A stretch of DNA of 64,000 nucleotides from Planctomycetota bacterium (GTDB taxonomy: Bacteria > Planctomycetota > J058 > JAJDCQ01). The notes beneath the pieces were generated by a model that worked only from the letters and a program-made list of their open reading frames with translations, was not told where the DNA came from and did no database searches. Numbering within the stretch: the first letter of the stretch is position 1; the number at the start of each line of letters is the position of its first letter. The translations under genes were made by a program, and so were the position numbers. This document shows positions 10,607-15,851 of the stretch, one piece after another. Location: NCBI GenBank assembly GCA_029260755.1, contig JAJDCQ010000105.1, positions 1 to 64,000 on the forward strand, in the 5' to 3' direction.

Positions 10607-11746
10607 CTAGGTGCGCGCGCGCGCGGCCTCGCGTCGGGCCGCCTCCTCGGACTTTTTGCGACGCTTCGCCTCGGCCTTCGCCCGGCGCTTCGCCTCGCGC
10701 TCGGCGTCCCTCGCCTGGCGCGCCTCGTGCTTGGCGACCCGCTCGGGCGTCATGAAAGTGACGCCCTCGCCGCAGACCTTCTCGTTGTTGTCGTAGTACT
10801 CGCGCCCGTAGTCGGCGAAGCCGGCCACGTCGAACGCGGCGAGCGGCCGGAACGGCCGCGCCGCGAGGCGCTCGTGGACGAGGAGATCGATCGGCTTGCT
10901 CACCGGATCCCCGCGGCGGTCGAGGGCGTAGAGGGACCGGTCGGCGTCGAAGACGAACGTGTCGCGCTGCCGTCCGGCCTCGAGCCGCTTCAGCTCGTTC
11001 TTGCGGTCGAACCCCTGCCAGCCCGAGCGGGCGGTCGTCGCGAGCGAGTGGCCGGCGGCGTGATCGAGCTGGGCCTGCGCGAAGACGGCGCGCTTCACCT
11101 CGACCGACGGCGTCGGAGCGGCCCACAGAGCGGCGAGCTGCAGACCGAAGCGCAGCTCGTCGGCGAGGTCCTCGGCGTGCCAGAAGCCGGGGAGCGCATG
11201 CAGGACGGTGCCGTCGGCGGCGAGGACGAGGATCTGGGTGTTCACCGGACCGGCGCCGTTCGTCGTGCCGACGGCGACCTCGTTGCAGGCGTAGCCGTGC
11301 GACTCACCGACGTAGTCGGTGGCGATCAGGTTCTCCCAGACGAGGACGACCTCGTCGCGCAGGATCGGGAAGACGGGATCTCGGGGAAGGGACACGCCCC
11401 TCAGGCTCTGGCCCGCGCTTCACAAGAAGCCGTCGAGCTCGCCGAGCGCCGCGACCATCACGATGGGCCGCCCCGTCACCTGCGCCTCGGGCACCGCCGT
11501 CTCGAGCGAGCGATGCCAGCGGAGCTCGGCCGTGAGGCGCTCGACGCCGCGGATCACCTCGGCGCCGTCGACCTCGAGCTTCCGGAACGCCTTCGCCTCT
11601 CGCTTCGCCTCCTTGGCGGCGCGGGCGGCGGCGACCTCGGGCGACTCTGGCGACTGGTCGCGGCGGCGCTTCGCGTGCGTGCCGCCACAGCCGGCGGCGG
11701 TCGCGAGGCCGAGCAGGACCACGAGGAACCAGGGCATCGAGCGCAT
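10607..11746 (-). CDS. putative selenoprotein: thioredoxin-fold lipoprotein with in-frame TGA (Sec109)
   Basis: The frame opens at ATG 11746 with a strong GGAGGT 8 bases upstream and a lipoprotein signal ending ATAAGC. A charged helical linker follows, then the start of a thioredoxin-like fold: LRWHRSLETAVPEAQVTGRP, IVMVAALGELDGFL. At 11422-11420 the codon is TGA, and the same frame continues SAGQSLRGVSLPRDPVFPIL, VVLVWENLIATDYVG and the fold's closing strand ILVLAADGTVLHALPGFW, ending in a lysine/arginine-rich coil. Total is 379 residues with U109 where a redox cysteine is expected. A GTG inside the second half (11395) has a poorly spaced ribosome site, so independent translation is less likely. 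A GU-loop hairpin follows the TGA. The alternative is a nonsense-mutated gene or two adjacent genes. Confidence 0.6.
11386..11402 (-). promoter_or_regulatory. candidate bacterial SECIS hairpin
   Basis: Read on the minus strand, GAGGGGCGTGTCCCTTC starts 17 bases after the in-frame TGA. It folds into six base pairs (one G-U) closed by the five-base loop CGUGU. Bacterial SECIS elements are short hairpins just downstream of UGA with a GU in the apical loop, which SelB recognises. The 17-nt size and loop fit. The spacing is slightly longer than in the E. coli fdhF example, and hairpins are common in GC-rich DNA, so this is suggestive only. Confidence 0.4.
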
Positions 11747-11831: not shown

Positions 11832-12272
11832 TCAGATCGCCCAGGCGTGCTTCGCGTCGGGGTAGAAGAGGACGTCGCTGACGCTGGGGGCGAAGAAGAC
11901 GAGGAGCCAGCCGCCCGGCACCTTCGCGCGGAAGAGGTTCCCAAGTCGCCCCTTCATACCGGGTAGCGCAAGCACGCCGCCGGGCACCTCCTCGAACGCC
12001 ACGGCCGGATCGGTCCAGGCGTGGGTGGGGTCAGGCAGAAAGTCGAGACCTGCGCTCGCGATCAACCAGCCTCCGGGCACCCGGAGACGGGAGATCGCGG
12101 CCAGGGCCAATCCCCCGGTCTTGCCATCGCCGACGGTCTCCCAGCTCGGCTTCTCGTCGGCGGCATCCTGCGCGGTAGCCGGATCCGGGCGGATTCCGAA
12201 GGAGAAAGCGGCTCCGAGAGCGACACCCACGAGGACGAGTCCGGCCGCCGTGACGGTACGGTCGATTCGCAT
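11832..12272 (-). CDS. small exported or membrane-anchored protein with an internal repeat
   Basis: The protein has 146 residues from ATG 12272, with AAAGGAG 6 bases upstream. An N-terminal hydrophobic helix (VTAAGLVLVGVALGAAFSFG) is followed by a linker and a compact domain containing two imperfect copies of one unit: RVPGGWLIASAGLDFLPDPT-HAW and KVPGGWLLVFFAP...FYPDAKHAW. No family is recognised. It sits 85 bp upstream of the putative selenoprotein on the same strand, so the two may be co-transcribed, and it is divergent from the nickel/cobalt importer operon. Its function is unknown; the repeat suggests a small symmetrical beta domain. Confidence 0.7.
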   Translation of the reverse strand: MRIDRTVTAAGLVLVGVALGAAFSFGIRPDPATAQDAADEKPSWETVGDGKTGGLALAAISRLRVPGGWLIASAGLDFLPDPTHAWTDPAVAFEEVPGGVLALPGMKGRLGNLFRAKVPGGWLLVFFAPSVSDVLFYPDAKHAWAI

Positions 12273-12308
12273 GAGGGACTCCTTTGGTCGGCGAAGTCTC
12301 GCACAGGC

Positions 12309-12337
12309 TTGCATCCGCAAGGATCGCTTCATACGAT
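12309..12337 (+). promoter_or_regulatory. probable sigma-70 promoter of the metal-importer operon
   Basis: TTGCAT (12309-12314) and TACGAT (12332-12337) are separated by 17 bp. The predicted transcription start is about 20 bases before ATG 12364, with GGAG between. No metal-regulator operator or riboswitch could be recognised in the 91-bp divergent region. Confidence 0.5.
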
Positions 12338-12363
12338 CTCGAGAACCTTGCTACGGAGCCATC

Positions 12364-13122
12364 ATGGCCCAGCCCCCCCGCAATGCCGCCCGCGTCGCCA
12401 CCCTGCTCGCCCTCGCGCTCATCGCCGCCTCCGCCCGGAGCGCCGAGGCGCACTTCCCGATCCTCATCGCCGATCGACCCTGGGCGAAGAAGGGGGACGC
12501 GGTCCGGATCGACTACGCGTTCGGGCATCCGTTCGAGGCCGCCCACGTCGACGTCGCGCGCCCGGCGAAGGTCGGCGTGCGCACGCCGTCGGGGAAGACG
12601 ATCGCCCTCGACGACGGCCTCTCCGAGGCCACGATCGGGTCGGGCGACGCGAAGGCGACGGCCTGGCAGCTCGAGTATCGCCCCGAGGAGCGCGGCGACC
12701 ACGTCCTCCACCTCGAGGCGGCGCCGCGCGAGCACGAGGGGCGCGCCGTCGTCGACCACGTCAAGCTGATCCTCCACGTTCAGGCGCAGCGCGGCTGGGA
12801 CGCCGTCGTCGGCCACCCCGTCGAGCTCGTGCCGCTGACGCGGCCCTACGGCATCCCGGTCGGCGCGAGCTTCCGGGCGAGGGTGCTCGTCCACGGGAAG
12901 CCGCTCGGCGGCCTCGACGTCGCCGTCGAGGCGCGCAACGCCATCGCGCCGGACCCACTCCCGCCGGACGAGCTCATCACCCGCATTGAGAAGACCGACG
13001 ACCTCGGCGTCTTCGCCACGACCCTCGACCGTCCCGGCTGGTGGCTCCTCGCCGTCGACCACGAGAGCGAGGGCACGCACACCCGCGGCTGCCTCTGGGT
13101 CCACGTCGGCGCGCCCCGCTGA
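12364..13122 (+). CDS. NikK-like DUF4198 periplasmic protein of a Ni/Co importer
   Basis: The protein has 252 residues with a signal peptide ending EAHFP, so the mature N-terminus begins at or near a histidine. The body is two beta-sandwich-like parts typical of DUF4198: HFPILIADRPWAKKGDAVRI, YAFGHPFEAAHVD, then a carboxypeptidase-regulatory-like fold (VGASFRARVLVHGKPLGGLD) and WWLLAVDHESEGTHTRGCLW. DUF4198 proteins accompany nickel and cobalt ECF transporters, where they are thought to capture or hand over the metal. The conserved histidines near the start (AHFP, FGHPFEAAH) are candidate ligands. It is the first gene of a five-gene operon, its stop overlapping the cbiM start. Confidence 0.8.
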   Translation: MAQPPRNAARVATLLALALIAASARSAEAHFPILIADRPWAKKGDAVRIDYAFGHPFEAAHVDVARPAKVGVRTPSGKTIALDDGLSEATIGSGDAKATAWQLEYRPEERGDHVLHLEAAPREHEGRAVVDHVKLILHVQAQRGWDAVVGHPVELVPLTRPYGIPVGASFRARVLVHGKPLGGLDVAVEARNAIAPDPLPPDELITRIEKTDDLGVFATTLDRPGWWLLAVDHESEGTHTRGCLWVHVGAPR

Positions 13123-13805
13123 TGCACATCCTCGACGGCTTCCTCCCGACCTCGATCGTGATCGGCGGCGCCGTCTCCGGCGCCGCCCTGCTCGCCGTCA
13201 CCGTCCCACGCCTGACCGACCAGGAGGCGCCCAAGGCGGCCGTGATGACGGCGGCCCTCTTCGTCGGGTCGCTCCTGTCCTTCCCGCTCGGCGTCACCAG
13301 CGTCCATCTCTCGCTGATCGGGCTCGCCGGCGTCCTCCTCGGCCGCGCCGCGTTCCCCGCGATCGCGGTCGCCCTCGCGCTCCAGGCCGCGCTGCTCCAG
13401 CACGGCGGCCTGACCACGCTCGGCGTCAACGCGACGACGATGGGAGTCGGAGCGCTCGTCGCTGCGGCGATCTTCGCGCTGCGCGGACGCGGCGTGGCGC
13501 CTCGGCGCGACGCGATCGTCGCCGCGCTCGCCGCGGGCGTCGGGACGACGGTGGCGCTCGCCCTCTACGCGGCGGCGCTCCTCGCCGCCGGCGAGGCGTT
13601 CCGCGAGGTGGCGACGATCGCCTTCGTCCTCCACCTCCCGGTGATCGCGATCGAGGCGGGCGTCGCCGGCAGCGCGGTCGGCTACGTCGCCCGGGTGCGA
13701 CCGCGGATGCTCGGCGCGCGCGCGACGACCGACGCGACGCCGCCCGCCGCGCCGACGCCCTCGACCGAGACGCCGCCGCCGGTCGTCGAGGGAGCGGCCC
13801 GATGA
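13122..13805 (+). CDS. cbiM: CbiM/NikM substrate-binding membrane component of a Ni/Co ECF transporter
   Basis: The protein has 227 residues with six or more hydrophobic helices. It starts MHILDGFLPT, matching the family's invariant N-terminus, in which the amino group of residue 1 and His2 bind the metal; TSVH at 59-62 supplies the further conserved histidine. A Pro/Thr-rich cytoplasmic tail (about 195-227) is longer than usual. The start overlaps the NikK stop (TGATG), and its stop overlaps the next gene (ATGA). It selects Ni(II) or Co(II) for import with CbiQ and CbiO; sequence alone does not separate the two metals, though NikK and NikL partners favour nickel. Confidence 0.9.
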   Translation: MHILDGFLPTSIVIGGAVSGAALLAVTVPRLTDQEAPKAAVMTAALFVGSLLSFPLGVTSVHLSLIGLAGVLLGRAAFPAIAVALALQAALLQHGGLTTLGVNATTMGVGALVAAAIFALRGRGVAPRRDAIVAALAAGVGTTVALALYAAALLAAGEAFREVATIAFVLHLPVIAIEAGVAGSAVGYVARVRPRMLGARATTDATPPAAPTPSTETPPPVVEGAAR

Positions 13806-14326
13806 GGACGCCGATGCTCCGCGCGATCGCGCTGGTCGCTCCCGCGGTCGCGATCGGGCTGGCCTTCGCCGCGCCCGCCCACGCCCACGGGCTGAAGCTC
13901 GACTGCCGCCTCGGCGAGACGACGGTGCGGGTCGAGGCCTTCTTCAGCGATGGCACCGAGGCGGTCGGCTTCACCGTGACCGTCCGCCGGGTCAGCCCCG
14001 ACGGCGAGGTCGAGGCCGAGCCGCTCGCGATCGGCGAGACCGATGCCGGCGGCGCGTGCGAGCTCCCGCGACCGACGGCGGGCGCGACGATCGAGATCGA
14101 GGTGCGCGACGCCGCGGGCCACGCCGCCCGCGAGCGGCTCGAGGTGCCGGCCGCCGGCGAGACGCCGCCGAAGACGCCGTCCGCGCCGCCGACCGAGACG
14201 CGCGGGGCGGTCCGGTGGAGCCGCGTCGCCGCCGGCCTCCTCGTGATCGCCGCCCTCGGCGGGCTGCTCGCGATCGCGCAGCGACGCGCCCGCGGCGCCC
14301 CGCGGGCGGACGGCGGGGACGCGTGA
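13802..14326 (+). CDS. NikL-like accessory subunit of the Ni/Co importer
   Basis: The protein has 174 residues: signal peptide (ending AHAHG), a small beta-sandwich domain (LKLDCRLGETTVRVEAFFSD, TDAGGACELPRPTAGATIEI), a Pro/Thr linker and one C-terminal transmembrane helix (about 140-158) with an arginine-rich tail. This is the layout of NikL, which replaces the small NikN/CbiN subunit in some ECF importers. His residues directly after signal cleavage (AHAHGLKL) resemble the metal-binding start of its NikK partner. It overlaps cbiM by ATGA and cbiQ by TGATG, so strict translational coupling is likely. Confidence 0.75.
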   Translation: MRTPMLRAIALVAPAVAIGLAFAAPAHAHGLKLDCRLGETTVRVEAFFSDGTEAVGFTVTVRRVSPDGEVEAEPLAIGETDAGGACELPRPTAGATIEIEVRDAAGHAARERLEVPAAGETPPKTPSAPPTETRGAVRWSRVAAGLLVIAALGGLLAIAQRRARGAPRADGGDA

Positions 14327-15102
14327 TGACCGACCCGACCGCCGCCGCCTGGCTGCTCGGATGGGATGCGCGCGCCCGCGTCGTCGCGCTCCTCGCCCTC
14401 GCCCTCGCCACGGCCCTCTCGACGACCCTGGCCGCGGCGCTCCTCGGCACGAGCGCCGCCTTCGCGATCGCGCTGGTCGGCCAGGTCGGCCTCGCCGCCC
14501 TCGCCCACCGCCTGCGCCTCCTCGCTCTCTTCCTCGTCCCGATCGTGATCGTCGTCCCGTTCCACCGCGCCGCCGAGGCCGCCCCCCTCTTCCCCTACGC
14601 CTGGCCCGGCGGACCGACCGACGCGGGCGCCGACCTCGCCCTCCTCGTCGCCGTGCGGATCGTCGGCGCGAGCGTCGCCGCCGCGCTCGCGATCGCCGTC
14701 GGCCCGTTCGACCGGACGGCCAAGGCGCTTCAGGACCTGGGCCTGCCGCGGATCCTGGTCCACATGACGCTCCTGGCCTACCGCTACACGTTCATCTTCG
14801 GCGACGACCTCGGACGGGTCCGCGCCGCCCTCGCCTCGCGCGGCTTCCGGGCACGGCCGACGCCGGCGACGCTGCGGACCTATGGAGGGATCGTCGGCGG
14901 GCTGCTGGTGCGGAGCGTCGACCGGACCGAGCGCCTCGATCAGGCGATGCGCTGCCGCGGCTACGACGGCCGGATCCGGACCCTCGAGACGCCGGGCGTC
15001 GGCGCACGCGACGTCTCGATCGCCCTGGGCGTGATCGTCCTCGCGGCCGGCGTCGCCGCGCTCGAGGTCGCCGCCCGGCTCGCCGGGCCGGCGCTCACGT
15101 AG
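14326..15102 (+). CDS. cbiQ: CbiQ/NikQ transmembrane coupling protein of ECF transporter
   Basis: The protein has 258 residues with about five to six membrane helices. The two coupling-helix motifs expected in T-components are present: ALASRGFRARP and AMRCRGYDG, which contact the ATPase. Other family features are LLAYRYTFIFGDDLGRVRAA and VRSVDRTERLDQAM. It transmits ATP-driven movement from CbiO to CbiM. It lies between the NikL-like gene (overlap) and cbiO (20-bp gap). Confidence 0.88.
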   Translation: MTDPTAAAWLLGWDARARVVALLALALATALSTTLAAALLGTSAAFAIALVGQVGLAALAHRLRLLALFLVPIVIVVPFHRAAEAAPLFPYAWPGGPTDAGADLALLVAVRIVGASVAAALAIAVGPFDRTAKALQDLGLPRILVHMTLLAYRYTFIFGDDLGRVRAALASRGFRARPTPATLRTYGGIVGGLLVRSVDRTERLDQAMRCRGYDGRIRTLETPGVGARDVSIALGVIVLAAGVAALEVAARLAGPALT

Positions 15103-15122
15103 GCTGCGAGCAGGAGCTCCCG

Positions 15123-15851
15123 ATGGCCGACGCCCTCGTCGACGTCCACGACCTCCGCCACGTCTACCACGACGGCACCCGCGGCCTCGACGAGGTCACC
15201 CTCCACGTTCACCGGGGCGAGAACGTCGGCCTCGTCGGCCCGAACGGAGCCGGGAAGTCGACCCTGCTCCTCCACCTCAACGGCGTCCTCCGACCATCCT
15301 CGGGGAGCGTCCACATAGGCGGCGTCCCGATCGACGACCTCCACGTGACCGAGGTGAGGCGCCGGGTCGGGCTCGTGTTCCAGGACCCGAACGACATGCT
15401 CTTCACGACGTCGGTGCGGGACGACGTCGCGTTCGGACCGCTCCAGCTCGGCCTGCCCGCCGAGGAGGTCCACCGCCGCACGGCCGAGGCGATCGCCGCG
15501 GTCGGCATCGAGGGGCTCGAGGAGCGACTGCCCCACCATCTCTCGCTCGGCCAGAAGCGCGCGGCCGCGATCGCCGCCGTCCTCGCGATGCAGCCCGAGA
15601 TCCTGGTCATGGACGAGCCGACGAGCAACCTCGACCCGCGCGGGCGGCGTCAGCTGATCGAGCTGCTCCGCGGGCTCGATCAGACGCTGCTCGTCGCGAG
15701 CCACGACCTCGAGTTCATCCTCGAGCTGTGCCCGCGCGTGGTCGTCCTCGACGGCGGCCGCATCGTCGCCTCGGGCGCGACCCGAGAGCTGCTCGCCGAC
15801 GAGCCGCTCCTCCTCGCCCACGGCCTCGAGCGGCCGCCCTCGCTACGCTGA
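15123..15851 (+). CDS. cbiO: CbiO/NikO ATPase of ECF transporter
   Basis: The protein has 242 residues, the full length for the family. Walker A is GPNGAGKST (about 41-49), the Q-loop FQDPNDMLF, the signature LSLGQKRAAAIA (Q-K-R form usual in ECF ATPases), Walker B ILVMDEPTSNLD and the switch histidine SHD. AGGAG lies 6 bases before ATG 15123. It powers nickel/cobalt import. The last 9 bases overlap the end of the opposing YkgJ-family gene. Confidence 0.9.
   Translation: MADALVDVHDLRHVYHDGTRGLDEVTLHVHRGENVGLVGPNGAGKSTLLLHLNGVLRPSSGSVHIGGVPIDDLHVTEVRRRVGLVFQDPNDMLFTTSVRDDVAFGPLQLGLPAEEVHRRTAEAIAAVGIEGLEERLPHHLSLGQKRAAAIAAVLAMQPEILVMDEPTSNLDPRGRRQLIELLRGLDQTLLVASHDLEFILELCPRVVVLDGGRIVASGATRELLADEPLLLAHGLERPPSLR

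Follow-up and report, generated by a model that had tools for sequence, protein, structure and literature searches.

Does the single TGA that interrupts an otherwise open frame of 379 codons in this planctomycete DNA encode selenocysteine, or is it a genuine stop, a sense codon for another residue or an error in the record? The frame lies on the minus strand of the window, by which we mean the whole 64,000-nucleotide stretch that was analysed, and runs from an ATG at 11746 to a TAG stop ending at 10607. An earlier note, made from the sequence alone, had claimed that the frame continues across one TGA. The continuity is exact, with the codon at 11422..11420 corresponding to residue 109. The features discussed below are as follows.

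10607..11746, minus strand: predicted selenoprotein gene of 379 codons, recognised from one frame with a single TGA and nearly full-length conservation in homologues
11670..11746, minus strand: predicted signal peptide with a possible, unconserved lipobox (AAGC), from the sequence and the hydrophobic N-termini of homologues, which mostly lack the lipobox Cys
11120..11520, minus strand: predicted thioredoxin-fold domain (strand beta1 at residues 95-100, Sec109, helix alpha1 at 110-119), from AlphaFold2 and Foldseek
11420..11422, minus strand: in-frame TGA, predicted Sec109, in the motif GELDGFL-U-SAGQSLRG; TGA in the same aligned column of 30 homologues and Cys in distant ones
11386..11402, minus strand: bacterial SECIS-like hairpin of 17 nt (6-bp stem GAGGGG/CCCUUC, loop CGUGU), supported by a synonymous-shuffle test, a Cys-form control and covariation
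10607..11119, minus strand: C-terminal region, a helical segment with a conserved VHERxAxRPF followed by a charged helical tail differing from member to member, from the alignment and the model

From the comparisons set out here, it is very probable that UGA codon 109 is decoded as selenocysteine, as the earlier note had inferred. Three lines of evidence support this reading: selA, selB, selD and tRNA-Sec in the host genome, homologues with U, CU or Cys at the same position, and selection on the hairpin at the RNA level.

Conservation of the UGA codon

The host genome holds a paralogue with the same TGA and 56% identity to the window protein. Over the first 61 codons past the TGA, the two USAG paralogues (named here for the motif U-S-A-G) are 70% identical, and the extreme third-position GC of both clouds dN/dS between them. 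Of 98 related genomes searched, 21 contained homologues, and most of these homologues have a single TGA in frame. In a profile search across 392 genomes of the phylum, 30 near-full-length members in 29 genomes scored above 250 bits, and all 30 carry TGA at the family's Sec column (motif U-S-A). The 12 best aligned members all share Sec109, Ser110, Ala111, Leu115 and Arg116. One USAG homologue, L018 (G016:C48), loses its match about 60 codons past the Sec position and resumes it in another frame, so a frameshift or assembly error in that record is probable.

At greater distance, this column is occupied by CU (EEFC-U-TNARLARTV), TU (GRT-U-NNARAFRV) or Cys alone (SERS-C-ANSRFFRT, the SCANS group). 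U, CU or Cys thus aligns with the TGA, as was expected of homologues of a selenoprotein, and none of the homologues ends there. In the tree, the 32 USAG rows, all with Sec, are separate from the CU group, and the Cys rows are nested inside the CU group. A degenerate pattern with a Cys codon in the USAG motif retrieved no relative from 84,980 named genomes, for which reason the USAG subfamily appears to be intolerant of Cys; nor was a Cys form present among the subfamily members retrieved from the 392 genomes of the phylum. Another scan of named genomes gave no relative, and plasmid records gave no match.

These comparisons bear directly on the suggestion that the TGA arose through a sequencing error, or that a recent mutation has made a pseudogene of an ordinary Cys protein. 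The host assembly is a draft of 12.26 Mb in 276 contigs with 88% completeness, which speaks in favour of this suggestion. However, the same TGA occurs in the paralogue, and about 40 genes of separately assembled genomes have it in the corresponding position; this recurrence excludes a sequencing error. The lack of a Cys form among USAG members and the codon-level selection past the TGA described below argue in the same direction, and the likelihood of this explanation as a whole is negligible.

A SECIS-like hairpin past the UGA

The earlier note had also described a 17-nt hairpin after the TGA, and it is present at 11402..11386 with the loop CGUGU, starting 20 nt past the U of UGA. By itself, the hairpin does not stand out in a gene so rich in GC: the surrounding 44 nt have a different minimum-energy fold (z = +1.1), and for the 20-nt hairpin alone z = -1.5. 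The GU of the loop is conserved, but this is partly imposed by a Val codon.

Comparison of homologues, through shuffles, a Cys control and covariation, places the hairpin far beyond chance. It lies about 20 nt past the U of UGA in nearly all of 40 TGA genes, typically as GAGAGC-CGUGAC-GCUCUC. When synonymous codons were drawn randomly in proportion to the codon use of the gene concerned (2000 shuffles), the summed stem length of the 40 genes, 273 bp, far exceeded both the random mean of 105 +/- 9 and the largest random sum of 138. Of the 38 genes with Arg in the 5' arm, 33 use AGA or AGG for it; outside this site the two account for only 83 of 561 Arg codons in these genes. In the Cys homologues (n = 7), pairing does not exceed that of shuffles (12 against 13.7). 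In the aligned elements 93.9% of cells are paired and double changes occur in four of the six pairs, with 18 cells carrying compensatory double changes against 3.1 +/- 1.5 when shuffled; sliding the partner by 1 to 3 columns lowers pairing to 31-67%. Together, these comparisons indicate selection on the hairpin as RNA. Searches of the region with Rfam returned only chance matches below threshold.

L079 is the sole TGA-form gene without the standard stem where it usually lies (3 pairs there); an alternative stem, CACUACGG/GUAGUG, may substitute.

Decoding machinery of the host

The earlier note had asked whether selA, selB, selC (tRNA-Sec) and selD are encoded, and all of them are present in the host genome. 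Profile searches found SelB at 335 bits (over its curated cut-off), SelA at 541 bits and SelD at 343 bits, and a tRNA-Sec with a UCA anticodon was detected by two programs. SelD of the host is a UGA selenoprotein in its own right, its TGA lying in frame within SGG-U-AGKLGP. Across the 98 related genomes, SelB exceeded its cut-off in 13 of 13 relatives with the TGA form and in 57 of the 85 others (Fisher p = 0.017, uncorrected for relatedness). SelB and tRNA-Sec would then decode UGA codon 109 under the direction of the hairpin 20 nt downstream.

A complete Sec system, including the UCA tRNA-Sec, also argues against UGA being a sense codon for some other residue through code reassignment or a suppressor tRNA. 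In one gene, a frame left open by such a change would look alike. However, TGA is the terminator of 16 of the 21 called genes in the window, and UGA is therefore not generally reassigned; moreover, the TGA forms have the hairpin and the Cys forms do not. Reassignment is accordingly a highly improbable account of this codon.

Fold, export and possible chemistry

An AlphaFold2 model built from the alignment (mean pLDDT 81, and about 90-98 over most of the thioredoxin-fold domain) predicts further strands at 134-139, 170-175 and 180-186. In this model Sec109 is predicted to cap helix alpha1, which is the reactive position of thioredoxins. The earlier placing of the TGA at the redox-Cys site of a thioredoxin-like fold agrees with this position at the N-terminus of alpha1 and with the Cys of distant homologues. 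The best Foldseek matches in the PDB are human AGR3, AGR2, DsbD-gamma and DsbH (E about 0.004, probability near 1.0); at the sequence level, no PDB entry matches the family profile.

The model also bears out the earlier view that the TGA splits the fold, as the upstream part would end after beta1 and the downstream part carries the remainder. This matters for the possibility that UGA is mostly a real stop, with a 108-residue main product and a hairpin that tunes termination or acts as a selenium-dependent switch. Many bacterial Sec codons are read inefficiently, which lends this scheme some credit. However, its main product would hold an incomplete domain, and the downstream part, with the rest of the thioredoxin fold, is conserved as protein across the family. 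We consider a predominant stop very unlikely, and selenocysteine insertion remains the preferred reading. The product would fold as a thioredoxin-like domain in which the Sec selenolate caps the N-terminal end of helix alpha1.

Upstream of the TGA, the protein begins with a hydrophobic stretch, a signal sequence by which the product would be exported. Its classification as a lipoprotein in the earlier note is doubtful. The N-terminus, MRSMPWFLVVLLGLATAAGC, looks like a lipobox, but the lipoprotein signal is weak, AAGC occurs only in the window copy, and lipobox Cys is not conserved in the family; the N-termini of the host's paralogue and of the other homologues inspected resemble ordinary signal peptides.

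The motif (UxxG) is without a resolving Cys, and no other Cys is invariant. As there is no invariant second Cys, a single-selenolate mechanism that needs an outside thiol is most likely. The protein is probably an exported one-selenol oxidoreductase that, outside the cytoplasm, would either reduce peroxides or resolve mixed disulfides with an external thiol partner; as an account of the precise reaction this is quite possible but falls short of probable. A function closer to that of a disulfide isomerase or chaperone of the AGR2/DsbD type, rather than a peroxidase, is favoured by the top structural matches to AGR3/AGR2 and DsbD-gamma. However, those matches are at the level of the fold only (E about 0.004), and Sec is often retained for peroxide or reductase chemistry; we hold the isomerase-like alternative as a tentative one that deserves to be kept in view.

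Relation to catalogued families

The earlier note knew of no named selenoprotein family with this layout, and that statement holds. No Pfam family matches the window protein, no NCBIfam model (June 2026) covers the family, and none of the 119 families in a 2026 inventory of prokaryotic selenoproteins has the USAG motif (PMC13188914), although supplementary lists elsewhere may contain it. The family is nevertheless not wholly isolated, since a distant named relative exists in VPGUxxT type 2 (NF041383, 'OS_HP5'). This nearest catalogued relative aligns in a profile-profile comparison, for which NF041383 members from the same phylum were used, over 119 columns (95.8%, E 8e-9) with Sec matched to Sec. 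Both families begin with a W.....A..A....KP pattern and both occur in the same phylum. In contrast, the window family has USAG after LDGxx (LDGFLUSAG) and lacks the VPGU motif, and the C-terminal parts differ, that of NF041383 members being MsrA-like by our reading of the sequence. The NF041383 model itself (curated cut-off 275 bits) gave no match, with the window protein at E 5 and 12 members at E 1, and a very long tree branch separates the two families. Within VPGUxxT, the frames of L083, L084 and L086 each contain TGA twice, the second one falling in the C-terminal, MsrA-like region (e.g., FGMT-U-YWVGE), and these members are therefore probably double selenoproteins.

Other known proteins are linked to the family by fold. 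Thioredoxin_7 (PF13899), Thioredox_DsbH (PF03190) and DsbD-gamma share the thioredoxin fold by structural match, and PF13899 and PF03190 weakly match 4 and 3 of 12 members, respectively (E 0.0036-1); they have CxxC where the window family has UxxG, and the window protein itself is unmatched. The Trx7/PDZ selenoprotein (NF041199) likewise combines a thioredoxin domain with Sec, and a CU-type relative matches it weakly at the N-terminus (E 0.22), but it has a CxxU motif and a PDZ domain and does not match the window protein. AGR2 and AGR3 are one-Cys thioredoxin-fold proteins of the endoplasmic reticulum. As the best structural neighbours they share with the window family the fold, a location in a secretory compartment and a single reactive residue, Cys in their case, whereas they are eukaryotic, lack Sec and are only 13-17% identical, so the likeness is one of analogy only. 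USAG is best described as a new family within the class of thioredoxin-fold selenoproteins, outside VPGUxxT by score and motif.

Genomic context and the wider superfamily

A planctomycete host is probable from six PSD1-domain matches, with none in 14 control genomes. The wider superfamily is represented in this host by at least five genes with a TGA. Three further thioredoxin-like genes with TGA (L109, L110 and L108; G000:C114, C207 and C91) carry the motifs GRT/GLT-U-NNA and PFC-U-TNA with a hairpin past each TGA, and look like further uncatalogued selenoproteins. Elsewhere, L030 and L041 have the motif variants DC-U-NAG and DC-U-GAG and fall on a deep branch of the superfamily tree; their hairpins are explicable by the protein sequence alone in the synonymous-shuffle test.

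Directly upstream of the selenoprotein gene, at 11832-12332 on the minus strand, lies a gene for a small, probably exported protein of 166 aa that matched no Pfam family and is possibly co-transcribed with it. On the plus strand, at 12190-15851, genes for DUF4198, CbiM, CbiQ and an ABC ATPase stand in a row and constitute a cobalt/nickel ECF-type transporter. No conserved neighbourhood was found for the window copy.

At 8 of 18 loci examined (L091, L092, L093, L096, L100, L101, L105 and L106), an FHA-domain gene lies immediately upstream on the same strand. These neighbours have a probable membrane span and, in several cases, a HEAT-like end; they are absent beside the two USAG copies of the host genome. 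As the pairing is repeated, the FHA-domain protein is a possible functional partner. A broader and rather unlikely reading is that USAG is the branch in which Sec is obligate within a large superfamily of exported thioredoxin-fold selenoproteins (USAG, CUTN, CUAN, TUNN and CUNA/CUGA) that is absent from catalogues, and that the FHA pairing in some lineages reflects a redox pathway that depends on selenium, operates outside the cytoplasm and is linked to phosphothreonine signalling.

The locus adds a widespread predicted selenoprotein family and several sister subfamilies, none of them named in current profile libraries. Because these libraries do not name the family, annotation that takes UGA as a stop splits its genes in two, and because the subfamily seems to be without a Cys form, methods that depend on Cys homologues would tend to miss it. 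The apparent intolerance of Cys raises the question of which extracytoplasmic reaction might demand selenium so strictly.
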